Made by a program: the position numbers and the translations under genes. From positions 62,001 through 126,000 of IMG/VR virus record IMGVR_UViG_3300018004_000004: a stretch of 64,000 nt of DNA; one strand, written 5' to 3'. Of this stretch, positions 3,562-55,559 are shown piece by piece. The number at the start of each line of letters is the position of its first letter. The first letter of the stretch is position 1. The notes under the pieces are model-generated. The model did no database searches, had not been told where the DNA came from, and saw nothing but the letters and a program-made list of their open reading frames with translations. This stretch comes from a virus.

Positions 3562-3562
3562 T

Positions 3563-3637: not shown

Positions 3638-3638
3638 C

Positions 3639-3718: not shown

Positions 3719-3726
3719 AGTTTCGC

Positions 3727-3802: not shown

Positions 3803-3812
3803 AGATTTACGT

Positions 3813-3887: not shown

Positions 3888-3898
3888 CATATTTACTA

Positions 3899-3973
3899 GC
3901 CATGGTAGCTCCAATGTAGAGCTGCGCACCTGTAATGCGCGGGTTGGGGGTTCAAGTCCCTCCCATGGCTCCA
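3899..3973 (+). tRNA. tRNA-Thr (TGT) with C33
   Basis: Acceptor GCCATGG/CCATGGC, D stem GCTC/GAGC, anticodon stem GCGCA/TGCGC with loop CCTGTAA (anticodon 3931-3933), 5-base variable loop, T73, encoded CCA. The residue before the anticodon is C instead of U33. Confidence 0.85.
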
Positions 3974-3983
3974 CGAGGTCACA

Positions 3984-4391: not shown

Positions 4392-4465
4392 GCGAGGTTG
4401 GTATAGTGGTAGCACGTGACCTTGCCAAGGTCGAGGCACCGGTTCGAATCCGGTACTTCGCTCCA
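4392..4465 (+). tRNA. tRNA-Gly (GCC)
   Basis: Acceptor GCGAGGT/ACTTCGC, anticodon stem TGACC/GGTCG with loop TTGCCAA (anticodon 4424-4426), T arm ACCGG/CCGGT, U73 as is usual for Gly, encoded CCA. Confidence 0.94.
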
Positions 4466-4604
4466 GGATCTTATGCTAGCTTATGCAATAACTTGCACTG
4501 TTCTAATGGCTGCTGTTTACTTCGCGCCATTCTGCAAGAAAGGGTTTCGACCCGACCAATCACCAAAGTACACGGTGGGTCCTCTTAAGGGATAATCGGG
4601 ACCA

Positions 4605-4680
4605 GCGGCTGTGATGTTAACGGCCAGCATGTCTGCCTTCCAAGCAGAATGTATCGGTTCGAATCCGATTAGCCGCTCCA
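4605..4680 (+). tRNA. tRNA-Gly (TCC)
   Basis: Acceptor GCGGCTG/TAGCCGC, anticodon stem TCTGC/GCAGA with loop CTTCCAA (anticodon 4639-4641), T arm ATCGG/CCGAT, U73, encoded CCA. The 139 bases before it contain only small hairpins (AATGG/CCATT, GGGT-TTCG-ACCC). Confidence 0.94.
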
Positions 4681-4687
4681 AGCTCTC

Positions 4688-4772
4688 GAAGCACGGTAAG
4701 GGTCATGGCCCTACACGGACGCATACGGATGATGTACCATGAGCCGTCCGGCGCAGCCGCATTACGTGCTTC
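4688..4772 (+). ncRNA. Possible multi-branched structured RNA between tRNAs
   Basis: A long closing stem pairs GAAGCACG (plus TAA after a bulged G) at 4688-4698 with TTACGTGCTTC at 4762-4772. Inside are AGGG-TCATGG-CCCT (4699-4712) and CGGACG/CGTCCG (4716-4721 with 4745-4750). It fills most of the gap between the Gly(TCC) tRNA and the odd Arg tRNA. It is not a tRNA: no T arm or anticodon arm can be formed. Confidence 0.4.
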
Positions 4773-4776
4773 CCGG

Positions 4777-4853
4777 GCCTCCGTAGCTCAGCCTAGCAGA
4801 GCACCGGGCATCTAACCCGGGGGTCATCCGCGAAACACGGATCGGGGGCTCCA
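4777..4853 (+). tRNA. Atypical tRNA-Arg (TCT), possibly decayed
   Basis: Acceptor GCCTCCG/CGGGGGC, D stem GCTC/GAGC, anticodon stem CCGGG/CCCGG, U73 and CCA are all intact. The anticodon loop is CATCTAA (A at position 33, geometric anticodon TCT at 4811-4813), and the T stem ATCCG/CGGAT closes a loop CGAAACA that lacks TTC. It is either a pseudo-tRNA or a specialised tRNA-like RNA. If U33 is assumed, the shifted anticodon would be CTA, but the stem does not support that. Confidence 0.65.
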
Positions 4854-4858
4854 CGATC

Positions 4859-5062
4859 TTGCCTCTGGCTCCTCGTAAGAGGGGTAGTTCAAAGCTCACA
4901 GGGGCGCCAAGTGTAGTAGATGTAATCCGAGTCGCCGATCTTGACGACCTTCAAAGTGAGGTACACCGATGTTCAAACAACATCGGCACCGCCATCTTCA
5001 TCATCGCCACTACGGAAGAGGGCTATATCTTCTACTGGAGTGGGAAGGTGACGGAGTGGTAG
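4859..5062 (+). CDS. Hypothetical protein, up to 67 aa
   Basis: The frame runs from TTG 4859 to TAG 5060-5062. The last 50 residues look like a real small alpha/beta protein: strand VDVIRVADLDDLQ, helix VHRCSNNIG, strands TAIFIIATTEEGYIFYWSG. No ATG or GTG start is available, and the TTG has only a G-rich stretch of the preceding tRNA-like gene upstream, so the start is doubtful. Family not recognised. It is followed by the Ig-like gene at 5086. Confidence 0.5.
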   Translation: MPLAPRKRGSSKLTGAPSVVDVIRVADLDDLQSEVHRCSNNIGTAIFIIATTEEGYIFYWSGKVTEW

Positions 5063-5085
5063 TGTCTTCCTTAGGAGGAACGTTA

Positions 5086-5466
5086 ATGATTCAAGTATCA
5101 GACAGTTTGCTTTCAAATCTCGCGTTGGCACTCGTTGACCAGCTCGGTTTCCCAGCCAATCTGGATGGCGTAACTGCAGTATGGTCGATCGACAACGCGA
5201 ATGTTGGTTCCATTGTGGGCAACAACTTCGCAGCTGTGTTCACACCTGGAACAGATTTGACCGACGTCGGAACCATCACAGCAGCCGTGAGCATCAATGG
5301 CACGTTTGCTTTCAATGTAACCGTCCAGGTCCAGGTTGTATCTGGTGCACCAGTGAGTGGTACAATCACACTGAGTGGCACTTCTCCTCTGCCGGCCGCT
5401 GCACCCGCAGCCCCAGCAGCTCCAGCAGCCCCTGCAGCCCCAGCGGCAACAGGCGCAACAGCCTAA
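5086..5466 (+). CDS. Small Ig-like protein with Pro-Ala repeat tail
   Basis: ATG 5086 lies behind TTAGGAGGAACGTTA, a strong ribosome binding site. The 126-residue product has a beta-rich Ig-like domain (residues 1-95: VTAVWSIDN, FAAVFTPGTDLTDVGTITA, FAFNVTVQVQVV) and a low-complexity tail of repeated AAP units ending TGATA. The final NVTVQVQVV strand resembles the TTATIQVGSV strand of the truncated protein at the window start. Pro-Ala tails usually act as flexible linkers; decoration of the virion or cell surface is possible. No signal peptide is visible. Confidence 0.75.
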   Translation: MIQVSDSLLSNLALALVDQLGFPANLDGVTAVWSIDNANVGSIVGNNFAAVFTPGTDLTDVGTITAAVSINGTFAFNVTVQVQVVSGAPVSGTITLSGTSPLPAAAPAAPAAPAAPAAPAATGATA

Positions 5467-5678
5467 AGTAGTCCTAAGTCCTGAGGGGTGAGTAAGGCCC
5501 CTCAGGCAGAGATTAGAAGTATAAGATTGGTAGCGCGAAAAGCGACAGGTAGCCCCTCTGTATACCGAGGGCAGGTGCTGAATCGTCCCAGACGTGGGGT
5601 GATTTGGAAGTTGGTCCACCGGAAGGCCAGCGCGGTTGTCGTGTAAGCCGTGCGCTATTGATATTCCAAGAGGTTGCT
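5467..5678 (+). other. Intergenic region with 9-bp hairpin
   Basis: No gene is seen. A 9-bp hairpin CCTGAGGGG/CCCCTCAGG spans 5480-5506 without a U-tract; CCCTC/GAGGG pairs around 5555-5572, and GCGCGG can pair with CCGTGCGC around 5628-5654. Confidence 0.4.
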
Positions 5679-5810
5679 ATGTGCACAATGAAGTGTCCTG
5701 TGTGCGGTAAGCAGGTTAGCAAACCTCAGCCTAAAGACGAGTTCGTCTGCCCATGTGGTTGGCGATCGGAAGCAAAAAAGAACAACGGAGAACATCATGA
5801 AGAACAGTAA
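5679..5810 (+). CDS. Zinc-ribbon mini-protein, 43 aa
   Basis: ATG 5679 follows CCAAGAGGTTGCT, a good ribosome binding site; the open frame extends upstream without a comparable site. The 43-residue protein has MKCPVCGKQV and FVCPCGW, giving CxxC and CxC pairs about 17 residues apart, a minimal zinc ribbon. Its tail is hydrophilic (SEAKKNNGEHHEEQ). Such mini-ribbons in phages often bind nucleic acid or a host protein; the partner is unknown. It overlaps the next gene by 14 bases. Confidence 0.75.
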   Translation: MCTMKCPVCGKQVSKPQPKDEFVCPCGWRSEAKKNNGEHHEEQ

Positions 5811-5952
5811 CGGGTCTAAGACACCTCCAGCACAACTTAGCAAGACCCCGTATATCGGCGACCCGATCTTCGCGTCACCGACCACACACAAGGCAAAGGC
5901 CATCAAGCCTACTCAGCCGAAGGTGGCAAACTCGGGCGTCAAAAAGGGCTAA
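5797..5952 (+). CDS. Hypothetical protein, 51 aa
   Basis: ATG 5797 is inside the end of the zinc-ribbon gene, with CGGAGAACATC before it as ribosome binding site. The 51-residue product is basic and proline-rich, without predicted secondary structure (KTPPAQLSKTPYIGD, KAIKPTQPKVANSG). It is comparable in type to the small basic proteins at 15173 and 14985 on the other strand. No family recognised. Confidence 0.6.
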   Translation: MKNSNGSKTPPAQLSKTPYIGDPIFASPTTHKAKAIKPTQPKVANSGVKKG

Positions 5953-5965
5953 GCCGGCAACGGTA

Positions 5966-6088
5966 ATGGCCCTCAGAAAGAAAGCGAAGAAGGCCTCATG
6001 GTTTAACCATGGGGCCACTCGACTAGCCGCGGCTACAGTACAAATGTACAAGCCGCAGAAGCCATTACCGCAACCCAAAGCAAAGTAA
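5966..6088 (+). CDS. Small basic protein, 40 aa
   Basis: An ATG-initiated frame of 41 codons starts 14 bases after the previous stop. The product begins MALRKKAKKASWF and ends QKPLPQPKAK; about a quarter of the residues are Lys or Arg. The ribosome binding site is weak (CGGCAACGG). Position and direction fit a cotranscribed mini-gene, but the length makes the call uncertain. Confidence 0.45.
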   Translation: MALRKKAKKASWFNHGATRLAAATVQMYKPQKPLPQPKAK

Positions 6089-6099
6089 TACTCCCACCT

Positions 6100-6127
6100 T
6101 TGGCTTGCCGTCCTGGCAGGCTATAAT
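6100..6127 (+). promoter_or_regulatory. sigma70-like promoter candidate
   Basis: TTGGCT at 6100-6105 and a perfect TATAAT at 6122-6127, with a 16-base spacer, lie just upstream of the Asn tRNA and the Pth2 gene. The layout matches 414-441. Confidence 0.45.
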
Positions 6128-6145
6128 ACAACATAGAGATTCTAC

Positions 6146-6221
6146 TGGAGTGTGGCTCAACCGGTACAGCATCTGGCCGTTAACCAGACACTTGGGGGTT
6201 CGAGTCCCTCTGCTCCAGCCA
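6146..6221 (+). tRNA. tRNA-Asn (GTT) with C33
   Basis: Acceptor TGGAGTG/TGCTCCA, anticodon stem TCTGG/CCAGA with loop CCGTTAA (anticodon 6179-6181), T arm GGGGG/CCCTC with loop TTCGAGT, G73 as in bacterial tRNA-Asn, encoded CCA. C replaces U33. Confidence 0.88.
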
Positions 6222-6227
6222 AGCTTA

Positions 6228-6625
6228 TGAAAGAGACGCCCAAAGTAGAGAAGCGCATATACGTTGTCCTCCCTTCATTCGTCATATCACCGACGATGTT
6301 CCTAAGAGAGGTCATTCCGATGTCCTGCGGCCGCTGTATAGCACAGGCATGTCATGTGGTATCGAAGCTGAAGCTGAGACTTAAACTGGATCCCGATGAA
6401 GAACACACAACCATCGTCCTCAAAGTCGTTGACAGCGACGAGCTGGAAAAAGTCCGTGATAAGATCTCACGCTCGCGTCTTCCGTGGGAAGAGTTTCGCG
6501 ATACCAACCCCGGGTACTATAAGACTGAAAAGTCCATCCTAACCGCGGTTGCTGTTTGTTGTTCGAGAAAGAAAGGTAAGTCACTGTTCCATGGCTACGA
6601 TGCCTGGCAGTGTGATGTGGAGTAA
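6228..6625 (+). CDS. Peptidyl-tRNA hydrolase, Pth2-like
   Basis: The 132-residue product matches the Pth2 (archaeal/eukaryotic-type) fold pattern: a first strand RIYVVLPS, the helix GRCIAQACHVVSKL (equivalent of the GKxAAQxxHA helix that holds active-site residues), strand HTTIVLKVVDSDELEKV, helix RSRLPWEEFRDTNPGY, and the end strand KSILTAVAVC. Pth2 cleaves peptidyl-tRNA left by abortive translation, releasing tRNA for reuse. ATG 6228 keeps the first strand; ATG 6309 has a better ribosome binding site (AGAGAGG) but would lose it. An insertion of about 12 residues lies before the active-site helix. The gene sits within the tRNA array and near the tmRNA, consistent with translation rescue. Assignment rests on motif reading. 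Confidence 0.75.
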
Positions 6626-6723
6626 ACTCGTGAAGAACGATACAATGGGCGGATGCATTCGATTGCTAGGCCTGCTTAGTTAGCAGGCCCGCGGACTGCC
6701 GTCCCCGGACCTTGTAGTTCAAG
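6626..6723 (+). other. Intergenic hairpin, 7 bp
   Basis: GGCCTGC (6669-6675) pairs with GCAGGCC (6683-6689) around the loop TTAGTTA. No U-tract follows. No gene is seen in these 98 bases. Confidence 0.4.
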
Positions 6724-6802
6724 GCGCTGGTGGACAAAATGGCAAAGCCGCCTCGTTCAGACCGAGGAGATTTTGTGGGTTCGAATCCCACCCAGCGCAC
6801 CA
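6724..6802 (+). tRNA. tRNA-Leu (CAG) with short variable loop
   Basis: Acceptor GCGCTGG/CCAGCGC, anticodon stem CCTCG/CGAGG with loop TTCAGAC (anticodon 6758-6760), T arm GTGGG/CCCAC, A73, encoded CCA. The variable region is only 7 bases, unlike the long arm of a normal bacterial tRNA-Leu. Confidence 0.87.
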
Positions 6803-6815
6803 AGTTTATCGATGT

Positions 6816-6904
6816 GCTGGAGTGGCGTAACTGGCAGCCGCGCAGGGCTCAAGCCCCTGTGGCCCTAGAAAGCCGTGAGAGTTCGAATCTCTCCTTCAGC
6901 ACCA
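6816..6904 (+). tRNA. tRNA-Leu (CAA)
   Basis: Acceptor GCTGGAG/CTTCAGC, anticodon stem CAGGG/CCCTG with loop CTCAAGC (anticodon 6850-6852), long class II variable arm, T arm GAGAG/CTCTC, A73, encoded CCA. Confidence 0.93.
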
Positions 6905-6905
6905 A

Positions 6906-6990
6906 GTACCTGTGCTGAAACTGGTAGCCAGCCGCGGTTGAGAGCCGCGTGCCGCAAGGCGTGGAGGTTCGAATCCTCTCAGGTACACCA
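6906..6990 (+). tRNA. tRNA-Leu (GAG)
   Basis: Acceptor GTACCTG/CAGGTAC, anticodon stem CGCGG/CCGCG with loop TTGAGAG (anticodon 6940-6942), variable arm with GCC/GGC stem, A73, encoded CCA. One base separates it from the previous tRNA. Confidence 0.94.
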
Positions 6991-6995
6991 AGATT

Positions 6996-7313
6996 ATGAT
7001 ACCAACGCTTCTCAAGATCGCAGTGGGTATTCTGATTCCGGCCGCAACAGCAGACGGAGTCAGCACAGCTCACTTTCTGAGGAAAGGTTACACTGAAGCA
7101 GATCGAATCATGATCTGGATCTACGGCACCGATGATCCTTCAGTGAAGAGGATGTGGGTTCGTAGCAGCATTGCCGTAGCACTCGAGGTCCTTGTAGCAG
7201 GTATTGCAGCGCATTACTGGACACCTGCAGGATACGGATTTGGAGTTGGGTATCTGTGCCAGGCAGCTTATCACGTCTACTGTACAGTGAACAACTATAG
7301 GAACGTGCCATGA
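6996..7313 (+). CDS. Small membrane protein, 105 aa
   Basis: ATG 6996 follows the Leu(GAG) tRNA by five bases, with no clear ribosome binding site, so expression may depend on tRNA processing or upstream translation. The 105 residues contain an N-terminal hydrophobic helix (TLLKIAVGILIPAATADG), a central TM (RSSIAVALEVLVAGIAAHYW) and a third hydrophobic stretch (GYGFGVGYLCQAAYHVYC). The first helix ends in D-x-x-S-T-A, like the GDTYYT of the next membrane protein at 7496, so the two may be distant paralogues of a DUF5658-like type with D and E residues near the membrane. Function unknown. Confidence 0.75.
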   Translation: MIPTLLKIAVGILIPAATADGVSTAHFLRKGYTEADRIMIWIYGTDDPSVKRMWVRSSIAVALEVLVAGIAAHYWTPAGYGFGVGYLCQAAYHVYCTVNNYRNVP

Positions 7314-7357
7314 AAGGCGGACAGAGCAGCGGAGTCGGTTATCGTAGCGCTTAATGA

Positions 7358-7375
7358 GCGCACGGAGAGGTGCGC
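7358..7375 (+). other. Hairpin before tRNA-Tyr
   Basis: GCGCAC and GTGCGC form a 6-bp stem around GGAGAG, seven bases before the Tyr tRNA. It may be a processing signal; no U-tract follows. Confidence 0.3.
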
Positions 7376-7381
7376 TTCCAT

Positions 7382-7471
7382 GGAGGCGCAGCAGAGACGG
7401 GGATCTGCACTTGGCCGTAACCCAAGGTCCCAACGGGACTAGAGAAGGTTCAAATCCTTCCGTCTCCACCA
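7382..7471 (+). tRNA. tRNA-Tyr (GTA) with C33
   Basis: Acceptor GGAGGCG/CGTCTCC, anticodon stem CTTGG/CCAAG with loop CCGTAAC (anticodon 7417-7419), class II variable arm GTCCC/GGGAC, T arm with loop TTCAAAT, A73, encoded CCA. C occupies position 33; the class II arm independently supports Tyr. Confidence 0.9.
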
Positions 7472-7495
7472 AGTTTAGAAGTACAAGGAGCAAAT

Positions 7496-7849
7496 ATGTT
7501 TGATCCATCGACAGATCCAAGAACGTGGCCCAATCAACCGGGCTTCTGGGAATCACTCGGTATCTTCGTTCTGTATGCTTACATGCTCGTTGCTATCCTG
7601 GGCGACACGTATTACACAGGGGTCGGACTGGCAAAGGGATTGAAGGAAATGAATCCTATCAATCGCTGGCTCTTCCCCAAGTTGGGTCAAGCATTGACTT
7701 GTTTTGTTGAAGCCGCGGCAATCACAGTAGTAGGTGGAGTCTTCATGGCCTATAGTATGCCGCTGGCTTATGGTTATTGGGGACTCATCGCAGCCCTCGA
7801 AACCTGGATGGTTTATCGTAATCGCAAGATCCTAGGATTGAGTTTGTAA
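7496..7849 (+). CDS. Membrane protein, 117 aa (DUF5658-like pattern)
   Basis: ATG 7496 follows ACAAGGAGCAAAT, a strong ribosome binding site. The 117-residue product has three hydrophobic segments: residues 20-40 (LGIFVLYAYMLVAILGD), 68-90 (ALTCFVEAAAITVVGGVFMAY) and 92-108. Between the first two lies GDTYYTGVGLAKGLKEMNPINRWL, close to the D-x-x-T...G..E.NP pattern of DUF5658-type small membrane proteins. The function of that family is not known to me. It could act on the host envelope. It is related in layout to the product of 6996-7313. Confidence 0.8.
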   Translation: MFDPSTDPRTWPNQPGFWESLGIFVLYAYMLVAILGDTYYTGVGLAKGLKEMNPINRWLFPKLGQALTCFVEAAAITVVGGVFMAYSMPLAYGYWGLIAALETWMVYRNRKILGLSL

Positions 7850-7895
7850 TGACGCGCGCACTAGAGCCACGACCCGAACGACCGTAAAAGGTCAC

Positions 7896-7969
7896 CGGGG
7901 TGTGTTCTAGTGGTAGGATCCATGCGTCGGAAGCATGGGGCGGAGGTTCGATTCCTCCCACCCCGACCA
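7896..7969 (+). tRNA. tRNA-Pro (CGG)
   Basis: Acceptor CGGGGTG/CACCCCG, anticodon stem CATGC/GCATG with loop GTCGGAA (anticodon 7928-7930), T arm GGAGG/CCTCC, A73, encoded CCA. C1-G72 is typical of bacterial tRNA-Pro. Confidence 0.94.
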
Positions 7970-7978
7970 GATTTCCGT

Positions 7979-8053
7979 GGGGCAGTGGCGCAACGGGAGC
8001 GCAGATGCTTTGCAAGCATAAGGTTGTGGGTTCGATTCCCATCTGCTCCACCA
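7979..8053 (+). tRNA. tRNA-Ala (TGC)
   Basis: Acceptor GGGGCAG/CTGCTCC, D stem GCGC/GCGC, anticodon stem GATGC/GCATA (last pair G-A) with loop TTTGCAA (anticodon 8011-8013), T loop TTCGATT, A73, encoded CCA. Confidence 0.92.
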
Positions 8054-8063
8054 AGGATTGACA

Positions 8064-8276
8064 ATGATCATCGAATCATACGTAACTGAAGTAGTAGATA
8101 CCGACACGAAGCAGAAGAGAGCTTTTGTCGGTGTAGTTGGTGGCGAAGTACTGTTGGATGTTCCCTTCAAGGATACCGATAACGAGAATCTGATCAAGAC
8201 TCTCGTATGCGCTATCAGGGTTCTCGAACAGAAGCTGGTAGATGCTGGCCAGCCGCCATTTGGTGGTATAGTTTAA
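8064..8276 (+). CDS. Hypothetical protein, 70 aa
   Basis: ATG 8064 is chosen because AAGGA at 8053-8057, partly inside the Ala tRNA CCA end, lies six bases before it; the TTG at 8058 is too close. The 70-residue product is a small beta-beta-alpha protein (IIESYVTEVVDTDTKQKRAFVGVVGGEVLLDV, then helix NLIKTLVCAIRVLEQKLVDAG). No family recognised. It ends three bases before the Trp tRNA, so gene and tRNAs alternate on one transcript. Confidence 0.75.
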   Translation: MIIESYVTEVVDTDTKQKRAFVGVVGGEVLLDVPFKDTDNENLIKTLVCAIRVLEQKLVDAGQPPFGGIV

Positions 8277-8279
8277 CGC

Positions 8280-8357
8280 AGGCCGGTCGTTTAGCCCGGT
8301 CCAGGACCTCGGTCTCCAAAACCGATGACGGTGGTTCAAATCCATCCTGGCCTGCCA
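8280..8357 (+). tRNA. tRNA-Trp (CCA)
   Basis: Acceptor AGGCCGG/CTGGCCT, anticodon stem TCGGT/ACCGA with loop CTCCAAA (anticodon 8316-8318), T loop TTCAAAT, G73 as expected for Trp, encoded CCA. Confidence 0.93.
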
Positions 8358-8369
8358 AAGGATTTGTGG

Positions 8370-8375
8370 TATAAT
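8370..8375 (+). promoter_or_regulatory. TATAAT box upstream of Ser tRNA
   Basis: TATAAT with TGTGG directly before it; a weak TGGCCT lies 16 bases upstream. It could drive the Ser-Ser-Phe tRNA group from 8439. Confidence 0.3.
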
Positions 8376-8438
8376 AAAAACATGAACGATACAGCCAACT
8401 CGAGTAGTAGAAGCTCATCACGATCTACCCGTGTATAC

Positions 8439-8528
8439 GGAGGGTTGGCTGAGTTTGGAAAGGCGCCAGGTTGCTAACCTGAGGCCTGGTGAAAGCCAGC
8501 GTAGGTTCAAATCCTACACCCTCCGCCA
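8439..8528 (+). tRNA. tRNA-Ser (GCT)
   Basis: Acceptor GGAGGGT/ACCCTCC, anticodon stem CAGG/CCTG with loop TTGCTAA (anticodon 8473-8475), class II variable arm CTGG/CCAG, T arm GTAGG/CCTAC, G73, encoded CCA. Confidence 0.95.
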
Positions 8529-8534
8529 AGTTTA

Positions 8535-8623
8535 GGAGGGCAGCGCTGAATGGTCGGCAACGGTCCCGAAAACCGAGACTCGTCGAAAGGCGAGACAGAG
8601 TTCGATTCTCTGGCCCTCCTCCA
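8535..8623 (+). tRNA. tRNA-Ser (CGA) with C33
   Basis: Acceptor GGAGGGC/GCCCTCC, anticodon stem CGGT/ACCG (A-A at the fifth pair) with loop CCCGAAA (anticodon 8567-8569), class II variable arm CTCG..CGAG, T arm CAGAG/CTCTG, T73, encoded CCA. C33 and T73 are unusual for Ser. Confidence 0.87.
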
Positions 8624-8625
8624 AA

Positions 8626-8699
8626 CCCGCGGTCGTTCAATGGTAGGACCCCTGACTGAAGATCAGGAGATGATGGTTCGAATCCATCCCAAGGGACCA
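8626..8699 (+). tRNA. tRNA-Phe (GAA) with mismatched acceptor
   Basis: Anticodon stem CCTGA/TCAGG with loop CTGAAGA (anticodon 8658-8660), T arm GATGG/CCATC with loop TTCGAAT, A73, encoded CCA. The acceptor CCCGCGG/CCAAGGG has two adjacent mismatches (G4-A69, C5-A68), so the tRNA may be weak or decaying. Confidence 0.82.
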
Positions 8700-8706
8700 C
8701 AAGTTT

Positions 8707-8877
8707 ATGAGTAGTACAGAAGATCTGATTTACAGGCTGCGCAAGCGCGCTGAGATACGAAGGCAGATAACTACACGCAAGAGCGTACAAGAAGGAAAGC
8801 CTGATCGTATCGCCGATCTTCTGGAAGAAGCAGCCAATGAGCTGCAAAGATTATTGGATTTGACCTGTAGTAGATGA
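8707..8877 (+). CDS. Small helical phage protein, 56 aa
   Basis: ATG 8707 follows the Phe tRNA by seven bases. The 56 residues read as two amphipathic helices: EDLIYRLRKRAEIRRQI and RIADLLEEAANELQRLL, joined by TTRKSVQEGKPD. The RKSVQEGKPDRIADLLEEAA block is one I recall from many small unnamed phage proteins, where it probably mediates oligomerisation or binding to a larger partner. The function is not known. The weak upstream sequence leaves ribosome binding unclear. Confidence 0.7.
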   Translation: MSSTEDLIYRLRKRAEIRRQITTRKSVQEGKPDRIADLLEEAANELQRLLDLTCSR

Positions 8878-9107
8878 GTAGTCCTTGTATTCTGGCTCTG
8901 CCATTCGGAAATAGCAGAGCGCGTCAATCGGCACGGTGTTGTACAATCCGTGGTGGCGCTCACGGATTACAACGAGACTAATCATCTAGGTCAGTTGTTC
9001 TTAGGTCTGCAGGAGCTGTAGTCACCACTGCATAAGCTGGTGCCCCCACATTACGGGGGAGAGCTGGCGTCGCCTTTGAGTGCTACAGTTAGACCTTCGT
9101 ATTTCGC
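8878..9107 (+). other. Intergenic region with three stable hairpins
   Basis: No gene is convincing in these 230 bases. Hairpins: GCTCTGC/GCAGAGC (8895-8901 with 8914-8920), AATCCGT/ACGGATT (8945-8951 with 8962-8968), and CCCCC/GGGGG around 9043-9059. None has a U-tract. The Asp tRNA follows. Confidence 0.4.
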
Positions 9108-9186
9108 GGTGATATGGGACAGTCTGGCCTACTCCGCTCCCCTGTCACGGGAAACCTCGCCGGTTCAAATCCGGCTATCACCGCCA
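9108..9186 (+). tRNA. tRNA-Asp (GTC)
   Basis: Acceptor GGTGATA/TATCACC, anticodon stem TCCC/GGGA with loop CTGTCAC (anticodon 9144-9146), T arm GCCGG/CCGGC, G73 as expected for Asp, encoded CCA. Confidence 0.9.
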
Positions 9187-9187
9187 A

Positions 9188-9262
9188 GGCCCTATCGTCT
9201 ATGGGATAGGACTCCGGCTTCTCAAGCCGGCAACCCGGGTTCGATTCCCGGTGGGGTCACCA
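9188..9262 (+). tRNA. tRNA-Glu (CTC)
   Basis: Acceptor GGCCCTA/TGGGGTC, anticodon stem CCGGC/GCCGG with loop TTCTCAA (anticodon 9221-9223), T arm CCGGG/CCCGG, A73, encoded CCA. One base separates it from the Asp tRNA. Confidence 0.93.
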
Positions 9263-9296
9263 GTTTAACTTAGTCAAGGTCGGAGGACCAAGTACT

Positions 9297-9743
9297 ATGA
9301 GTAATGAAAAGAAAGACGCTACGCTTGGTATGTCACACGGTACGGCTACAAATAGATTACGTAAGCAGATAATGTTTAGATTACTGCAACGTTTGAATGA
9401 GAACTTTTGCTTTCGTTGTGGATGTGAAATACAATCAGTAGATGATCTAAGCATCGAACATAAGCAGCCTTGGGAAGGTATCAGTGCTGACTTATTCTGG
9501 GATGAAGAGAACATTGCCTTTTCTCACTTGCGATGCAATAGACCAGATAGACCAAGCGGTAGAAATGCGAATGCCAAGATTCCACCAATAGAAGGTGTAT
9601 GCTGGTGCGTTCCTGGCGATCATTTTGCTCCAGTCGATAACTTCTACAAGAATGAAAGTAGACCGACAGGATTACAGAACTGGTGCAAGGATCATAGACC
9701 TCCTCGATTAGGAGGCTACCACAAGTTTGCGATGCTCTGTTAG
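9297..9743 (+). CDS. HNH endonuclease with zinc ribbons
   Basis: ATG 9297 lies behind GGAGGACCAAGTACT. The 148-residue protein has an N-terminal helix region (GTATNRLRKQIMFRLLQRL), then CFRCGC (C38, C41), IEHKQPW (H55), DEENIAFSHLRCN (N72, H77, C80), which is the beta-beta-alpha metal HNH core with its structural zinc. A second zinc finger follows (CWCVPGDHF...GLQNWCKDH). Such stand-alone HNH proteins in phages are typically homing or packaging-related nickases. The gene looks more AT-rich and Asn/Lys-rich than its neighbours and sits in the tRNA array, which suggests independent acquisition. Catalytic H and N are present, so it is probably active. Confidence 0.88.
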   Translation: MSNEKKDATLGMSHGTATNRLRKQIMFRLLQRLNENFCFRCGCEIQSVDDLSIEHKQPWEGISADLFWDEENIAFSHLRCNRPDRPSGRNANAKIPPIEGVCWCVPGDHFAPVDNFYKNESRPTGLQNWCKDHRPPRLGGYHKFAMLC

Positions 9744-10035
9744 TCAGCCGTGTATACGGAACATCATCGCCGATACGGTGACGTTAATCAACAGGAGTGT
9801 AACGAGCCTCGAAAACTCGTTTCGTCTGAAAAACCTCCGACCCTTGAGTTTAGATGTGTCGAGCGAGGACACATCGCATGGCTATCTGGGCGCCTCGAGC
9901 CGAAGGGTAGCCAGAGTTTAGCGGGACTAAGTAGCTAGTGCTTTCCCCATCGGCTGCTACCTTGCCGTCGGCGGCATGGCCAGGGGAAAGGATCCTGTTC
10001 GCGACTGGATCTCACCCGCGGGTTTAGGAGACACA
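9744..10035 (+). other. Intergenic region rich in RNA structure
   Basis: No gene is seen. An 8-bp hairpin GATGTGTC/GACACATC (9853-9860 with 9868-9875) is followed by a stem TGGCTA/TAGCCA with an inner GGC/GCC, and by the element at 9941-9990. Confidence 0.4.
9941..9990 (+). ncRNA. Possible structured RNA with 8-bp closing stem
   Basis: CTTTCCCC (9941-9948) pairs exactly with GGGGAAAG (9983-9990). The enclosed 34 bases can form GCCG-TC-GGC-type inner pairs. It resembles the closed, branched elements at 1714-1780 and 4688-4772 in being set off from the flanking genes. Confidence 0.35.
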
Positions 10036-10194
10036 ATGTTTACACTTCTCAAGGTTGTAGTGGAAGGGATTCTTACCCTTCTTGTTTTCTTTGGCGGCAT
10101 GAAGTTCCAGCAACACTACCCTAACTTCATTGCGCGCGTTGATAGTATCCTAGCATGGATCAAGAACATCCTGCCAGGTACAACGAAGTCTTAA
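10036..10194 (+). CDS. Small membrane protein, 52 aa
   Basis: ATG 10036 follows TTTAGGAGACACA, a strong ribosome binding site. The 52 residues have one N-terminal TM (LLKVVVEGILTLLVFFGGM) followed by a short amphipathic helix (FIARVDSILAWIKNIL). The VFFGG motif matches VFCGG at the end of the TM in the protein at 1026-1247, so they may be related. A holin-like role is possible only by size. The stop is two bases before the Glu(TTC) tRNA. Confidence 0.7.
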   Translation: MFTLLKVVVEGILTLLVFFGGMKFQQHYPNFIARVDSILAWIKNILPGTTKS

Positions 10195-10196
10195 GT

Positions 10197-10271
10197 GCCC
10201 AAGTCGTACATGGGTTAGGATCCCAATCTTTCAAGTTGGGGAACAGAGTTCGAGTCTCTGCTCGGGTACCA
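10197..10271 (+). tRNA. tRNA-Glu (TTC)
   Basis: Acceptor GCCCAAG/CTCGGGT with one A-C mismatch, anticodon stem CCAAT/GTTGG with loop CTTTCAA (anticodon 10230-10232), T arm CAGAG/CTCTG with loop TTCGAGT, A73, encoded CCA. Confidence 0.9.
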
Positions 10272-10272
10272 A

Positions 10273-10422
10273 ATGAACTTCAAGCGAAAGCGACCAAAGA
10301 ACGCACGCAGTGGCTGCCTAATGTGCAAGCCACATAAGATGAATGGAATCAAACATACTTACCATGTCAAAGGTATCAGAGGCAAGGTGAACATCAAGGA
10401 TTTAGAACGGAGAGTGGCCTAG
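10273..10422 (+). CDS. Basic CxxC mini-protein overlapping a tRNA, 49 aa
   Basis: ATG 10273 begins within two bases of the Glu tRNA CCA end, and the TAG at 10420-10422 lies inside the acceptor and D arm of the Pro tRNA. The 49 residues are very basic (MNFKRKRPKNARSG) and contain CLMCKPHKMNG. I recall this CLMCKPHK motif from small unannotated proteins of many tailed phages, which favours a real gene. The CxxC with nearby H may bind zinc. No ribosome binding site is obvious apart from CGGGTACC in the tRNA. Confidence 0.65.
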   Translation: MNFKRKRPKNARSGCLMCKPHKMNGIKHTYHVKGIRGKVNIKDLERRVA

Positions 10423-10486
10423 TCCGGTTTAAGGCGCGTGCCTTGGGCGCACGAGATCGAGAGTTCAAATCTCTCCTCTCCGACCA
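10408..10486 (+). tRNA. tRNA-Pro (TGG)
   Basis: Acceptor CGGAGAG/CTCTCCG, anticodon stem CGTGC/GCACG with loop CTTGGGC (anticodon 10444-10446), T arm GAGAG/CTCTC with loop TTCAAAT, A73, encoded CCA. Its first 15 bases overlap the gene at 10273. Confidence 0.94.
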
Positions 10487-10501
10487 TTTTGGAGCAACAC
10501 A

Positions 10502-10930
10502 ATGATGGATCTATTGCATAAGTTCTTACTGGGTGGCGAGATCTTCGCCGGCGCCGTAGCAAGCCTGGTATTTGTTTCTGTAGCAATAGGATCCATTAGA
10601 CACTGGGTGGACAAGGGCGCCAAGCCATTTGTCTATCCTGATGACGTACCTCTGGCAGAAGCCAAGGCAGCAGCAGAACCATACTGGCACAGAGCGCTGG
10701 TAGCTTTGGACATCTTCCTGAACGTGGTAGTCTTGTTTGGAGCCCAGGATGAGACGATGTCGACTCATGCCTGGCGCGCGGCGGTAGCCGGCAAGCTCTG
10801 GGGCAAGCTCATGAACCTGTGGCTCAATGGTTTTCAGCCTCAGCATGGCCCTCAGGCAGCTTCCGGCGATCTCGAACGAGCATTGGCTCGTGTTGCAGTA
10901 CTCATGAAAGCTTTGGGCTTATCTAAGTAA
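10502..10930 (+). CDS. Membrane-anchored phage protein, 142 aa
   Basis: ATG 10502 (or 10505) follows TTTTGGAGCAACACA. Residues 8-32 form a TM segment (LLGGEIFAGAVASLVFVSVAIGSI). The rest is soluble and helical, with FLNVVVLFGAQDETMSTHAWRAA, GKLWGKLMNLWLNGFQPQH and a C-terminal helix ERALARVAVLMKAL. The NV...G..DET.S...RAA..GK.WG..M pattern recalls an unnamed family of small phage proteins whose function I do not know. TAA overlaps the next ATG by one base. Confidence 0.75.
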   Translation: MMDLLHKFLLGGEIFAGAVASLVFVSVAIGSIRHWVDKGAKPFVYPDDVPLAEAKAAAEPYWHRALVALDIFLNVVVLFGAQDETMSTHAWRAAVAGKLWGKLMNLWLNGFQPQHGPQAASGDLERALARVAVLMKALGLSK

Positions 10931-11133
10931 TGCTGGCCTTCTGGAAGTACGTGCATCGCTGCACGAACAAAGAACGAACCCGAATCATCATCGGGTATCC
11001 TTCAGCAGTCTGCAGTATGCACAGCGAAACAGACTACGGCCAGATGTCTATCAGCGGATTGTTCTATAGGCTAACAAGATCCAAGAAGATCTTTAAGCCT
11101 GCTGTTCCGGACTTTGCAACTAGTCCTTTTTGA
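10930..11133 (+). CDS. Hypothetical protein, 67 aa
   Basis: ATG 10930 shares its A with the preceding stop (TAATG), giving tight translational coupling. The 67-residue product is basic, with three cysteines and the stretch ERTRIIIGYPSAV; no domain is recognised. It ends four bases before the tmRNA. Evidence for coding is the coupling and gap-free fit between two firm genes. Confidence 0.6.
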   Translation: MLAFWKYVHRCTNKERTRIIIGYPSAVCSMHSETDYGQMSISGLFYRLTRSKKIFKPAVPDFATSPF

Positions 11134-11137
11134 TCTT

Positions 11138-11483
11138 GGGGACGTCCCGGTTTCGACAGATAGCGGAACGACCTGAATGCATGCCGGTGCCTGACGACCG
11201 TAACTGTTGGAAAACTTTAACTGCAGAGTTTGAAGAACTGCCGTTGGCTGCTTAAAGCAGCCACGTCCTACCTGACGATGCCTATTGATTGGGCTAGGGC
11301 GTAAACTAGTGGGCTAAGCTTCCCGGGTCAGCTCCCTGCGAGCCGGGCGGATGAAAACCAAGAAGGGATACTGGGACCTCACTTGTCCGGTCTGTAGGCC
11401 CCTGAGAAACCGAACGGAATAAGCATGTAGTATTCATAAGTAATGCTTTCTGGACACGGGTTCAACTCCCGTCGTCTCCACCA
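11138..11483 (+). ncRNA. ssrA: tmRNA (transfer-messenger RNA)
   Basis: The ends form the tRNA-like domain: GGGGACG at 11138-11144 pairs with CGTCTCC at 11473-11479 followed by ACCA, and the T arm ACGGG-TTCAACT-CCCGT is intact. The 5' part continues TCCCGGTTTCGACAG, the standard tmRNA signature. The tag frame starts at GCA 11223-11225 and reads AEFEELPLAA then TAA at 11253-11255; the stop lies in the loop of the GGCTGCTT/AGCAGCC hairpin, as in bacterial tmRNA helix 5. The LAA ending is the ClpXP-type degron. Tagging of stalled nascent chains and release of stalled ribosomes is the expected role. Phage tmRNAs are known but uncommon. Confidence 0.95.
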
Positions 11484-50307: not shown

Positions 50308-53300
50308 TTAGCTGGTGCTCTCTTCCCGGTACTCGTCCTCATTCCGGCGAATATCCCGCATAACCTCTTTGTCTCCCTGTTCGTCGACGCTTATAGACAC
50401 GTTGGAGCCTGCCACTCGGTTAGGACCGCCCGAGGAGACCACTTGCGGATTCTTATCTTGTCCCTCGAGGATAATACGCTCCACAGTTTGTCGTATGCGT
50501 TCTGTAGGTTGTGAACCGCTAGAAACAAGTTCTCGCACAGCTCCATCGATGTAGGGCTTGCGCCAGAGGAGGGCTGCCCGGTCGTCGTAGATGTTGAAGT
50601 CGTGGTAATCATAGCCTTCGTTCTGAATAATCTTAAGCTTGACATCCTCATAGTCAATGCCTTGCTCCCATAGCGGAGAACCAGGACCGGGGATATCAAA
50701 GCCGAGCTTGCCAAAGGTTTCGGCGATTTGCTTCGAACGGATGTAGTCTGCGTAGCTGAGGTCTGTTTTCGCTTGCTCATACTCTTTGAGGCCTTCCTCT
50801 GTGTAGAGGACTCCGCCTTCTTCAATGGCTGGTATTATCTTGCCCGCGAGGCGAGCAAGCATAGCATCAGTTTTTACCCACTGAGCAGTAAGGGCTCGGG
50901 CTAGTTCCGGAGAGACAGATTCAAGAATCTGCTGGCGCTTGTCCGGATCTGTTTCTTGGAGGAATGCTGGGAAGTAAAGCTTCTCGCGCCGAGGGAGGGT
51001 TTGAGAGACAAACTGAGGATTGCCAAAGAGATTGGCACCAATATTCGTTCTCTTACCCTGACTAGTATACCTGCCTTTCTGGCCTGGATGCGCTCCTGCC
51101 TGCACATCTGCACGCAGATATTCCAACTCATCGACCAAGCTATCCATTAGACGGCGATGTTCGACTTCTTCCGGCACCAATACACCGCCAGTGAAACGAC
51201 GGTAGGTACCGCGGGCCCATGCAGCAATCATATCATGGAACGGCTTCTGCCATCTACGCATGCGCGCGCCGTAGACTTCCTGTTCCTGATAGAGAGACAA
51301 AGCTGTGCGCTCATTCCAGTACTTTGTGTGGAATGGAGTTGGTACGAAGCGGAGAGGTCCACCCTCACCTGTGAAGGCCAGAGTCTCGGCGTACTTACCG
51401 AGAGCTACCTGGGTGGAGGAATACATGGCCTGAGCTTCTGCCCCGCCGTAATCCTTTCTGAACTGTCCGAGACCTCGATCGATGATTTCTTTGTTGATAT
51501 TAACATCATCAATGAAGATGACAGCACGAGACTCAGCCGCATGCTCTTCAGTACCCTTAGGCACAACAAGAGTAGCCTGCATGCCAACCTGGCTAGACAA
51601 GTAATCATCCAGAGAAGCTTGTTTCTCCGTAACGGCCTTAGCACTCTGAGAGCGAGTAAGTTCATTCTCCTCGCCGAGTGTTGTAGCTGAGAGATCGGAA
51701 GCAGACATACCAAGAGAACTGAATATGAACTTGCGTCCTGGATACTGCTCCAGCTCAATACCTTCTGGTGTAGCCTTGGTGATCGTTCCTTGGATCTGTT
51801 CGATCGAAGCAGTGAAACGACGCTGACCGAACTGGATCGTCGATTCCTTCATCTGGCGCACTTGATCTTCAGTGCGTGCAAACTCGATCTCCAGACGAGC
51901 ATCTCTCTGTGCGGCCGCGCGCACCTTGGAGCGATAGATCATGTACTCCTTACTCCAAGGAGCAACATCAGCCAGAATCTTGTAACGATAGATGTCTGGG
52001 TATTCTTCTGCCTTCAAGCCACGAAGCTCTGGATGCAGAGCAGCATAACCACGGCCTGGAAGACGAGCACCACCTTCCGGTATCTTGGCGAACGGATCGC
52101 CAGTACGGAAGTTGATCATGTAATCTTCGCCAGGCAGCCAACGAGGCATTGTATTCGGGATCTCATTAGCTTGCGGAGCTAGCTTATCAGGCTGAATGAA
52201 ACGGCGGAGAGGTTCTGAATAACCGAACGGCATGCCACCAGTTCCGCTAGGGTTGAAGCCAGACACAGCACCCAACTCACGCTGGTAGTACTGACGGGAC
52301 AGATTCGTCATTTGACGACTGCCCTGCAATACAACATCTTGACCCGGTGTTCCGGCGCCAGGAGTTCCAGCCTTACCATAAAGGGTTGTAGCTATGAACC
52401 CAGGCAGACCTGTATATTCAGCAAAGGCCAGCGCTTCACGACCGACAACATCCTTGAAGCCAAACTCCTCACGAGGCCGAGATGGCGCCAGGCCACCCAA
52501 CGCCATGTTAGGTTCTAGACGCGGGCTATACAACGTATAGTTGTTGATGTCCCATTCGCCTTGGTGCATTCTCTGTGTTGGCTTTACGATGCGGCCGACT
52601 GTGGCAGCCAGCAGCGGACCAATGAGAGGCACGTTGGAGAAAGCAGGAGATGTGATTGGGTATGGACGGCTAGCGTAGTTCGCGCGTTCCAGCCAGTATG
52701 GATCCTTTATGTACTTGAACGGATGCAGCAGTGGGTGATGTTCCCAGTATGCATCTTCCGAACCATAGGTCGATACCATCTCGGCCTTGGTCTTCATCAA
52801 CTGATACCAGTGCGGACGGAAGTACTTGATGCGACCGCCACTGAACGGAGTGGAACCTACATCCCACCAACGGCCGGCGCGGATTGGAACTTCTTCTTCA
52901 CCAGAGTAGATGCGTTGCAGCTCATCTTCAGTCTTACGGCTGCCCAACATACCAGGCACGAAAGGCAGAGCCAGCAAAGCACCGATACCTGCACCCTTCC
53001 AGAAGGCCTTGTGAGAAGCAGCTACTCGAGCAGCGTGGACTGGGAACTCTTGGGCGCCACGAGCAATGTTGACCCAGTGAATACCTGCACCAATAGCACC
53101 AGCTCCGATAGGCAGAGCTAACGGACCATACTGCGGACCTGGTACGATCTCTTCGTACTTATCTGTGATCGCACGGAGGCCTGGGATTGCGTCGGTTGCG
53201 CGCGCCCAGGCAAGATGAGCCTTAAGCGGAACCTCGGCGAGCGTCTCAGCTGGTTTATTTCCCAGCTGGTAGTTGATGTAACGTGCGGCCGTGATAGCAA

Positions 53301-55233
53301 GATATGCAGGCAGCACACGCTTGAGCATCAGCGCATTGAGCATTCCGCCTTCGCCGGCGAACGGAATGTGGAACAGTTTGTTGTATGAGCCCTTAGGCAG
53401 ACCCATACCGATATCAGACAACAGACGGAGTGGGCGCTCAGCAGCTTCGAATGCTACACGTTGACCTGTTCTGTAGGCCGATTCGATACCACCCACGAGT
53501 CCAGGCTGACGACCGTAGAGAGGTTCGAAGAACTGGAACTCTCCACCAATCTGTCTCTTGAAAGCCTGTCCCTTTGTGAGGGGAGTTCCTGGTCTCTGGC
53601 TGGCGCGGAGATTCTGGAACATCTCCCACATCTCAGCAAGAGGACCTTTGTCAGTCAGTGTACGAGGGAATACCTGTTCGCGGAGCTTGGCGCCAAAGGC
53701 AGCCGATGATCCTGTCAGCCGGCCGCGTTCGGCAAAGCGAATAGCTTCACCGCGGCCGCCAACCAAACTCAGATACGGAGAGGAAGCTGAGGTTCGAGTG
53801 AACCTCATTCCTGTCTTAGCAAAGCGTTCATCCAGGGCGCTGACACCAATCAGGCGCTCGATGTGCTTACCCATCTCGGTAAGCTCAGAACCGCGTATCA
53901 GTTGTTCGGCCGCAAAGGAAACTTCCTCTGGCAGATAACTGGACATGCGCTGAGACAGACCGAAGGTACGGAAGAGGCCGCCAGGCGAACGCGCTTCTAC
54001 CGTCTTCATGAACTGATAGACGCCCTCAGCATAGCCAGACCAGTTCTTAAGAGCAAACTTATGTGCTCCTACAACTGCGGCGCCACCAGCCAACCAGGCA
54101 GCTACCTTCAGAGTATTGCGATCGTCCTGTCCATCCCAACCGGATCCAAAATCAGTCAAGGCATGACGGCTCTCAGCAGCCAGACCTGTACCACTCAAAC
54201 CGGTGATCTGAGTCTGACGATCGCTTCTCTTGCTGCTTGCGATAGCCCACGCTGCGGTTGCCGCGGCAGCAAAGACCAGGGCAACAGAGATACCCTTTCC
54301 TATGGCACTGACTTTGTTAGGCAGGACCTTGGCACCACGCTCAGCCTGAGCAGCTACCTTCTCAGCCCAGGGGCTGGCATAGATCTTGGAGAAGAACGTC
54401 TCGGCAGTCTCACCTGGGGGCAAGAGTTGTGCAGAGCCCAGAGCTTCTTCCCAACTGTGCCCACGCTGTAGGTTTCTCTTGGCTGTGCGCAGGCGCTCAA
54501 AGAGGGTCTGCTCGACCTTGACGTCAGTCACAGCCTCATGATAGCCGGCAGCTCCAGCCAGCTTGGGACCCATGAGTCTTTCAAGTCCGCCGGCCGCACC
54601 AGCAATATTCTCAACCTTCCAGCCAGGAACCCACTGCATCTCCTCTACGTTACGCGCCAGCATACCTGGGCCGGTAGTCTTGGAGATAGGAGTGGATGGG
54701 CCCATGCGCAGGTGACGTTCTGCGAAAGCTGGGTTGTCTTGTCCGTAACCCAGCGCCAGTTCAAAGAATGACTGCTCCAAGCCGAATACCTTTACTCCCT
54801 TGCGCTTGAAGAAGTCCTTGTATCCAGCGAGGCTGGGATAACGGCCGGCGATCTCAGTGAGCACACCAGTATCGTACTTGACATTCCAGCCAGTCAGTAG
54901 GAAACGCTTCTTACGAGAGAGTTCTTCTTCGGCCGAGGCAAAGAAGCGTCGAGCTGCTTCTTCTTCACCGACCTGACCAAGCTTCATAGCCTGAGAAAGA
55001 ACTTGCTCGCCTTTCGCATAGTTGTACGCAAACGGGATATGAATCCCGCTCACAGGATCGGTATATCCAGTGCGAGGCTTTACTAATGTGGTGGGATGAA
55101 ACGGGGATGCTACGTAAGGAGGGAGTTTTGAAGCGAAGATCTGGAGCAGGCCTGTGTTCTTATGTCCAGCGGACAGGCCTGTAGTCTCGACGTCGAGAAC
55201 ATGAAAGAAATGCTTTTGATGCCAGGTTGCCAT
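50308..55233 (-). CDS. Giant tail protein with DEDDh exonuclease and SNase-like domains, 1641 aa
   Basis: ATG at 55233, six bases after the Fe-S carrier gene; ribosome binding site weak. Residues 9-245 form a DnaQ/RNase T-type exonuclease: VLDVETTGL (D14, E16), GWNVKYDTGVL (N117, D121) and GYHEAVTD (H232, D237), so all five DEDDh catalytic residues are present. Hydrophobic segments near 310-330, 375-392, 715-735 and 760-778 suggest membrane insertion. Around residues 1135-1280, ending SRAVIFIDDVNINKEIIDRGLGQF, the sequence resembles the end of a staphylococcal-nuclease (SNase) domain. The place after the tail-assembly genes is that of the tape measure. It may line the tail tube and act on nucleic acid during ejection. 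Domain calls are motif-based. Confidence 0.75.
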   Translation of the reverse strand: MATWHQKHFFHVLDVETTGLSAGHKNTGLLQIFASKLPPYVASPFHPTTLVKPRTGYTDPVSGIHIPFAYNYAKGEQVLSQAMKLGQVGEEEAARRFFASAEEELSRKKRFLLTGWNVKYDTGVLTEIAGRYPSLAGYKDFFKRKGVKVFGLEQSFFELALGYGQDNPAFAERHLRMGPSTPISKTTGPGMLARNVEEMQWVPGWKVENIAGAAGGLERLMGPKLAGAAGYHEAVTDVKVEQTLFERLRTAKRNLQRGHSWEEALGSAQLLPPGETAETFFSKIYASPWAEKVAAQAERGAKVLPNKVSAIGKGISVALVFAAAATAAWAIASSKRSDRQTQITGLSGTGLAAESRHALTDFGSGWDGQDDRNTLKVAAWLAGGAAVVGAHKFALKNWSGYAEGVYQFMKTVEARSPGGLFRTFGLSQRMSSYLPEEVSFAAEQLIRGSELTEMGKHIERLIGVSALDERFAKTGMRFTRTSASSPYLSLVGGRGEAIRFAERGRLTGSSAAFGAKLREQVFPRTLTDKGPLAEMWEMFQNLRASQRPGTPLTKGQAFKRQIGGEFQFFEPLYGRQPGLVGGIESAYRTGQRVAFEAAERPLRLLSDIGMGLPKGSYNKLFHIPFAGEGGMLNALMLKRVLPAYLAITAARYINYQLGNKPAETLAEVPLKAHLAWARATDAIPGLRAITDKYEEIVPGPQYGPLALPIGAGAIGAGIHWVNIARGAQEFPVHAARVAASHKAFWKGAGIGALLALPFVPGMLGSRKTEDELQRIYSGEEEVPIRAGRWWDVGSTPFSGGRIKYFRPHWYQLMKTKAEMVSTYGSEDAYWEHHPLLHPFKYIKDPYWLERANYASRPYPITSPAFSNVPLIGPLLAATVGRIVKPTQRMHQGEWDINNYTLYSPRLEPNMALGGLAPSRPREEFGFKDVVGREALAFAEYTGLPGFIATTLYGKAGTPGAGTPGQDVVLQGSRQMTNLSRQYYQRELGAVSGFNPSGTGGMPFGYSEPLRRFIQPDKLAPQANEIPNTMPRWLPGEDYMINFRTGDPFAKIPEGGARLPGRGYAALHPELRGLKAEEYPDIYRYKILADVAPWSKEYMIYRSKVRAAAQRDARLEIEFARTEDQVRQMKESTIQFGQRRFTASIEQIQGTITKATPEGIELEQYPGRKFIFSSLGMSASDLSATTLGEENELTRSQSAKAVTEKQASLDDYLSSQVGMQATLVVPKGTEEHAAESRAVIFIDDVNINKEIIDRGLGQFRKDYGGAEAQAMYSSTQVALGKYAETLAFTGEGGPLRFVPTPFHTKYWNERTALSLYQEQEVYGARMRRWQKPFHDMIAAWARGTYRRFTGGVLVPEEVEHRRLMDSLVDELEYLRADVQAGAHPGQKGRYTSQGKRTNIGANLFGNPQFVSQTLPRREKLYFPAFLQETDPDKRQQILESVSPELARALTAQWVKTDAMLARLAGKIIPAIEEGGVLYTEEGLKEYEQAKTDLSYADYIRSKQIAETFGKLGFDIPGPGSPLWEQGIDYEDVKLKIIQNEGYDYHDFNIYDDRAALLWRKPYIDGAVRELVSSGSQPTERIRQTVERIILEGQDKNPQVVSSGGPNRVAGSNVSISVDEQGDKEVMRDIRRNEDEYREESTS

Positions 55234-55238: not shown

Positions 55239-55559
55239 TTACACACTGAAGCTCTTACCACAGCCACACTGGCTGCGCACATGTGGATTAGTAAACCTAA
55301 ATCCAGATGCGTCTAGGCCTTCGATGTAGTCTACAGATACATCCTCAAGATACATCAAGCTCATTGGGTCCACGACTACTTTCACGGGACCAAACTCAAA
55401 CAGTTCCCAGTCCGGCTCGTATTCATCAACGAGACCGATAGAGTATTCGAATCCGGAGCAGCCGCCACCTTTCACACCAAGGCGGACGAACGGCCGATCT
55501 GGGTTATCTTTGAGGACGCTGACGAGCTTGTCCTGGGCGGCGATTGAAAGCTGGATCAT
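55239..55559 (-). CDS. A-type Fe-S cluster carrier (IscA/ErpA/HesB family)
   Basis: ATG at 55559 follows GGAGAGAAGGA, a strong ribosome binding site inside the end of the upstream gene. The 106-residue product matches A-type carriers: MIQLSIAAQDKL, GVKGGGCSGFEYSIGLVDE with C34, then VVVDPMSLMYLEDVSVDYIEG and NPHVRSQCGCGKSF with C98 and C100. The C-x63-C-x-C spacing is the family's cluster-binding triad. These proteins hand [2Fe-2S]/[4Fe-4S] clusters or iron to target proteins in the cytoplasm. Length 106 is normal for the family. It lies between the tail-assembly genes and the giant tail proteins, all in one direction, suggesting a virion or virion-assembly client. Confidence 0.93.
   Translation of the reverse strand: MIQLSIAAQDKLVSVLKDNPDRPFVRLGVKGGGCSGFEYSIGLVDEYEPDWELFEFGPVKVVVDPMSLMYLEDVSVDYIEGLDASGFRFTNPHVRSQCGCGKSFSV

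Follow-up and report, generated by a model that had tools for sequence, protein, structure and literature searches.

In a 64,000-nucleotide stretch of a 215-kb phage record (IMG/VR IMGVR_UViG_3300018004_000004, positions 62,001 to 126,000; we will call this stretch the window), one open reading frame encodes a DEDDh exonuclease joined to a gp145-like virion protein. We consider it very likely that both the exonuclease domain and the fusion are genuine. Going by sequence comparisons, residues 1–371 are best explained as a mobile module, comprising the exonuclease, a single membrane helix, and a GLxxxG...TDFGSGW motif. The best explanation for its distribution is that, in large phages, the module normally heads a separate protein of the polyvalent type, which lies beside the terminase in the sampled cases. 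The fold, the gp145 family, and the concept of polyvalent proteins were already known; the exonuclease–membrane helix–TDFGSGW module and its transfer onto a tail-cluster protein are new.

The fusion gene has an ATG start and 1641 codons, and is transcribed from 55233 to 50308 (Table 1). The plus-strand reading of the same interval has many stops. The gene lies within a myovirus tail cluster. Its upstream neighbors (relative to transcription) are a tail sheath gene (PHROGs, E = 2e-42) and two proteins that match a phage structural-protein family, followed by small genes and one for an IscA-type protein. Downstream are a 1589-amino-acid gene in the tape-measure slot and a 1951-amino-acid gene in the hub slot.

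Table 1. Coordinates of the fusion gene, its parts, and two neighboring genes in the window.
Feature	Residues	Position	Strand	Basis
DEDDh exonuclease–TM–TDFGSGW motif–gp145-like virion protein, one ORF	1641 aa	50308..55233	-	ORF call; same fusion in contigs L089 and L070
DEDDh exonuclease domain	1-258	54460..55233	-	AlphaFold2, Foldseek, hhalign against shuffles, HMM
ExoI motif VLDVETT	D14, E16	55180..55200	-	both invariant in 16/16 domains
ExoII motif GWNVKYDT	N117, D121	54868..54891	-	N117 invariant in alignments A12, A13, and A14; D121 is D, or E in one subfamily
ExoIII motif HEAVTDV	H232, D237	54520..54540	-	H232 and D237 invariant
Hydrophobic (membrane) segment	314-332	54238..54294	-	Kyte-Doolittle 1.97 over 19 residues; same place hydrophobic in related module proteins
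KRSDRQTQITGLSGTGLAAESRHALTDFGSGWDG motif	333-371	54121..54237	-	pattern scan of viral contigs and ORF reading
gp145-like body, homologue of the 0305phi8-36-type virion structural protein	375-1641	50311..54111	-	tblastn/blastp; 27-member alignment; L010 is body only
Tape-measure-position protein, next gene, equivalent of 0305phi8-36 orf146	1589 aa	45468..50237	-	synteny with ME3, KLEB27-3, and MTATph1
IscA/HesB-type Fe-S assembly protein, directly upstream of the fusion gene		55239..55559	-	Pfam Fe-S_biosyn, 3.8e-18; synteny

The exonuclease domain has no match in Pfam (including PF00929), PHROGs, or NCBIfam. These curated HMM libraries miss it, so the evidence comes from independent tests (MAFFT, hhalign, a custom HMM, and AlphaFold2 with Foldseek). 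The initial annotation, made from the sequence alone, had assigned D14, E16, N117, D121, H232, and D237 to the ExoI, ExoII, and ExoIII motifs. All six residues are present, and they form the D-x-E, N-x(3)-D, and H-x(4)-D patterns of the DEDDh superfamily in the expected order. When the protein was shuffled 20,000 times, the strict spacing of the three motifs did not arise once, and a looser pattern arose 10 times. When we aligned the window domain with E. coli DnaQ, six phage DnaQ proteins, and four jumbo-phage domains (MAFFT, unguided), the invariant columns were exactly these six residues. Across 16 divergent domains, the sole invariant columns were D14, E16, N117, H232, and D237. Even distant homologues retain the catalytic residues, except that D121 is replaced by glutamate in one subfamily. 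Several relatives have glutamate as the ExoII acidic residue; the window protein has the canonical aspartate. The glutamate-ExoII subfamily (QNxxFE) includes L099:1396–2985, L046, L047, and L116.

Profile comparisons point the same way. With hhalign, the window domain scored 38.5 against DnaQ-type profiles, whereas its reversed sequence scored 14.1 and none of 100 shuffles exceeded 17.9. An HMM that was trained without the window protein and without its two close orthologues matched the window domain at E = 2.6e-4 (best reversed decoy, 0.033). An hhalign comparison to three tape-measure-position domains alone was not convincing and was superseded by the larger profiles. A phmmer search of the PDB with the window domain returned an EF-1A match alone, which we judged to be due to chance. 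PF00929 does match the MTATph1 relative described below, at 24.2 bits (the cut-off is 24).

The predicted structure is an RNase H-like fold of the DnaQ/RNase T type. Given an 11-sequence alignment (the window protein and ten homologues from environmental contigs), AlphaFold2 modeled the exonuclease domain with a pLDDT of 87.3 and a pTM of 0.85. (A model made earlier from just two rows, one of them a partial homologue, had a pLDDT of 35 and was set aside.) The best Foldseek match in the PDB is RNase T (probability 1.00, E = 1.1e-3), followed by PolC-exo, the DnaQ domain, Exo I, TREX2, and, more weakly, NrnC. The top 28 PDB matches are all DEDD exonucleases or exonuclease-containing polymerases or helicases, and the viral matches are mostly DnaQ/DEDDh-type proteins. 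TM-scores for the nearest fold matches are modest (0.41 by query and 0.59 by target), perhaps because of lineage-specific helical insertions. The window domain shares the fold and the D, E, D, H, D residues of the three motifs with RNase T and DnaQ, but it has a longer interval between ExoII and ExoIII, and unlike them it is joined to a membrane helix and a virion protein. We predict that it is catalytically competent.

Could two adjacent genes have been read as one, through an assembly or frame error? A close relative of the window phage (contig L010) does have the body part alone, but an artefact is scarcely credible, as uninterrupted fusions with conserved neighboring genes are found in contigs L001 (100% identity), L089 (57.9% over residues 1–817, where the contig stretch stops), and L070 (39% over residues 24–1641). 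Within the exonuclease domain, the fusions in the independent contigs L089 and L070 are 52% and 30% identical to the window protein. Contig L002 keeps the first 92 residues at 93% identity. So the claim of an intact DEDDh exonuclease fused to a large protein in a tail gene cluster holds up, both for the domain (AlphaFold2 with Foldseek, hhalign, and HMM) and for the fusion (L001, L089, and L070).

The L010 protein is 58–68% identical across the body and starts at the body. The exonuclease module is absent, and no exonuclease was found elsewhere in this 62-kb contig (a fragment). In a tree of the body, L070 lies outside (L010,(window,L089)), with support of 99/99. Because L010 nests inside with this support, and because the exonuclease domains are 30% identical, these comparisons are most simply explained if L010 lost the module. 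Independent gains of the module in the window phage and in L070 would be a possible but less simple history. The IscA/HesB-type gene is present in L089 and L002; L010, in which the exonuclease module is missing, showed no copy of this gene either.

The body of the fusion is homologous (by tblastn or blastp) to ME3_35, KLEB27-3 gp031, and MTATph1 CDS0026. The annotation of ME3_35 names as its homologue YP_001429636, a virion structural protein from Bacillus phage 0305phi8-36. In 0305phi8-36, the gene order is chaperonins (orfs 143 and 144), tape measure (orf146), and hub (orf147). The ME3 counterparts of the chaperonin and the hub correspond to YP_001429634 and YP_001429638, so we deduce that YP_001429636 is orf145. 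The fused protein therefore corresponds to the gene that precedes the tape measure: both its homology and its place in the gene order fit the gp145-like family, and its homology lies one gene before the orf146 slot. The initial annotation had placed it at the tape-measure position, which was off by one gene; the tape-measure equivalent is the next gene. It had also described several hydrophobic segments, where Kyte-Doolittle analysis finds one strong membrane segment. Its broader suggestion of a tail protein with its own exonuclease survives insofar as the fusion lies in the tail cluster, but the protein is not the tape measure, and the exonuclease belongs to a recurrent module rather than to an isolated fusion.

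In an alignment of 27 family members including the window protein, the other 26 lack the 371-residue front and start with a short stretch and one hydrophobic segment. The window protein shares its body and its gene position with the gp145/ME3_35 family, but the front is otherwise found in L089 and L070 only, and we found both of these outside the 27-member alignment. A search of genome contigs with the body gave no matches. We did not find an exonuclease domain in the window's tape-measure-position protein, and in the 215-kb record of the window phage, no second exonuclease was found: the fused copy was the sole match. Nor did the stretch upstream of this phage's terminase show an exonuclease. 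The 9-kb stretch with the terminase gene also contains a collagen-like repeat region of low complexity (L114:8064–8465).

In the window protein, the membrane-type helix is followed by the motif TGLSGTGLAAESRHALTDFGSGWDG. When we searched viral contigs for DNA that encodes TDFGSGW, we obtained 32 stretches, most of them in ORFs of large phages. The consensus is KDDxYNTIEGLxHGGxAxxxRRxxTDFGSGWxG, often with two or three copies per protein. HMMs built from subsets of the domains (set B, E < 0.01) found the exonuclease in 17 TDFGSGW loci, or 16 without the window phage, and exonuclease loci that were left out of the training set had E values down to 1e-20. Other enzymes accompany the module: Pfam finds SNase in L072, L080, and L092 (2e-16 to 5e-13) and ABC1/Pkinase in L092 (2e-8 to 1.5e-7), while PD-(D/E)XK-like and further kinase-like stretches in other module proteins were read by eye, with no HMM confirmation. 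Most forms of the module have the membrane helix. The gene for the terminase large subunit adjoins module genes in L068, L084, and L087. In the TDFGSGW loci from L068 to L098, we also noticed that the segment repeats, up to three times per protein, between SNase, kinase, and PD-(D/E)XK-like domains. Searching INPHARED (tblastn) with the motif consensus or with two module proteins gave no match, although diverged versions may escape such a search. The TDFGSG motif was not found in the literature we searched, a body of text that leaves out most subscription journals.

These observations lead us to a tentative idea, which we would lean slightly against: the module may be the hallmark of an undescribed and widespread class of virion-delivered multi-effector proteins in uncultivated large phages. 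The TDFGSGW segments would be repeated spacers (for processing or docking) between interchangeable SNase, PD-(D/E)XK, and kinase effectors, and the window protein would be one such module that moved onto a tail protein.

Related proteins with an N-terminal DEDDh domain followed by a hydrophobic segment, as in the window protein, occur elsewhere in phages with gp145-type genes. In Acinetobacter phage ME3, ME3_11 stands alone between head completion and terminase genes. The proteins in L046 and L047 are outside the gp145-homologue gene. The L057 protein has a weak PD-(D/E)XK match and precedes the terminase and portal. In L115 and L116, the exonuclease is followed by the membrane segment, a TDFGSPY motif, and an SNase-like stretch. 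Unlike the window protein, these six are free-standing or are joined to PD-(D/E)XK-like or SNase-like sequence, and several lie beside the terminase. Genome G011 encodes an exonuclease–membrane segment protein beside terminase or head-completion genes, and the lineage members G006 and G007 have SNase-like sequence (read by eye). In L043, AVLDIETELF resembles ExoI, but ExoII was not found, so we set this look-alike aside.

A second arrangement, again from this phage lineage, has the DEDDh domain within a giant protein of the tail cluster. MTATph1 CDS0027 (L005:13447–17376, plus strand), at the tape-measure position, contains an intact DEDDh domain (approximately residues 865–1065), with a PHROGs match to a DNA polymerase exonuclease subunit (2.9e-12); its record says only hypothetical protein. 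In two giant tail proteins, KLEB27-3 gp034 (L004:14646–21950, plus strand) and its counterpart at L039:13480–20802 (plus strand), the DEDDh domain is near the N-terminus, at about residues 95–380. In all three, in contrast to the window, the domain is encoded one gene further on and sits elsewhere in the protein, and the TDFGSGW motif was not found in these tape-measure-position proteins. Neither the MTATph1 domain nor the A5 alignment picked out any relatives when we scanned viral contigs with them.

What might the fused exonuclease do? With middling confidence, we propose that it is a virion-borne, membrane-anchored effector of the polyvalent-protein type that was spliced onto a tail protein and is ejected at entry. 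In the window clade, where the gp145-like protein bears the module at its N-terminus, the gp145-like part would carry it into the tail or particle. At infection, the fusion protein would be ejected with or ahead of the DNA, and the hydrophobic segment would lodge it in the host's inner membrane. The exonuclease could then trim 3' ends near the entry site, in host or defense-related single-stranded DNA, RNA, or short oligonucleotides. We infer virion presence, ejection, membrane insertion, and these substrates; delivery by the virion is suggested because the gene is in a virion context (its homologues are annotated as structural, and it lies inside the sheath-to-hub cluster), because most forms of the module have the membrane helix, and because of the companion effector enzymes. 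The literature text contains no statement that gp145 is ejected.

Polyvalent phage proteins are large multidomain proteins that are encoded among late or virion genes and whose enzyme domains are proposed to act at entry (PMC5512222). The fusion has the same pattern as N4 virion RNA polymerase and P1 DarB (PMC5512222): it is multidomain, it includes an enzyme domain, and its gene lies among virion genes. The module's relatives carry kinases and nucleases. Unlike the proteins described in PMC5512222, however, the module in the window is joined to a tail-cluster protein. The text of PMC5512222 has no SNase or DEDD term, and "exonuclease" appears in one reference title only; a survey of jumbo phages (PMC7824862) likewise has no SNase or DEDD term.

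The main rival to an ejected effector is a role in packaging or end processing. The exonuclease might serve head filling or DNA maturation by trimming the genome's 3' ends, whether in packaged or in re-entering DNA, or it might protect or repair the ends, and anchoring it in the tail would merely position the domain at the tail-proximal end of the DNA. The DNA end normally lies near the inside of the tail in myoviruses, and the exonuclease–membrane segment genes that adjoin terminase or head-completion genes in several relatives fit packaging equally well. However, this role leaves unexplained why protein kinases and further nucleases are fused to the module, nor is it easily squared with L010, which does without the module and in whose 62-kb fragment no exonuclease was found elsewhere. 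We consider a packaging role rather unlikely.

We also considered that the exonuclease might remove nucleotide second messengers or guide or tRNA fragments, as a counter-defense enzyme delivered at entry that resembles Orn, NrnC, or RNase T. This is a special case of the entry-effector proposal, and early delivery would suit such an enzyme. RNase T is the best Foldseek match and NrnC is a weaker one, but the DNA-acting DnaQ and Exo I match as well, and there is no defense partner. We view this more specific role as improbable, to about the same degree as packaging.

Phage tails sometimes retain enzymes as structural domains, and Pfam-detectable similarity has gone from this one, but it is quite improbable that the domain is a folded and catalytically idle remnant kept for tail architecture, given that all five catalytic positions are kept while the remainder has diverged to 30% identity or less, and given that the close relative L010 does without the domain, which indicates that it is dispensable for the tail.

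If the entry-effector proposal is correct, then a membrane-anchored exonuclease on a tail-cluster protein, which in many uncultivated phages recurs alongside nucleases and kinases, would represent a new set of entry effectors. Phage enzymes that are injected with the DNA decide the first minutes of an infection, and to our knowledge, few injected phage nucleases have been described. Among the cultivated relatives, ME3 has a free version (ME3_11) and MTATph1 has a tape-measure-position version.

Outside the tail cluster, about 10 kb of the window (1610–11483) contains 25 predicted tRNA genes and a tmRNA gene (tag AEFEELPLAA). Two of the predicted tRNAs overlap on opposite strands, at 3486–3574.
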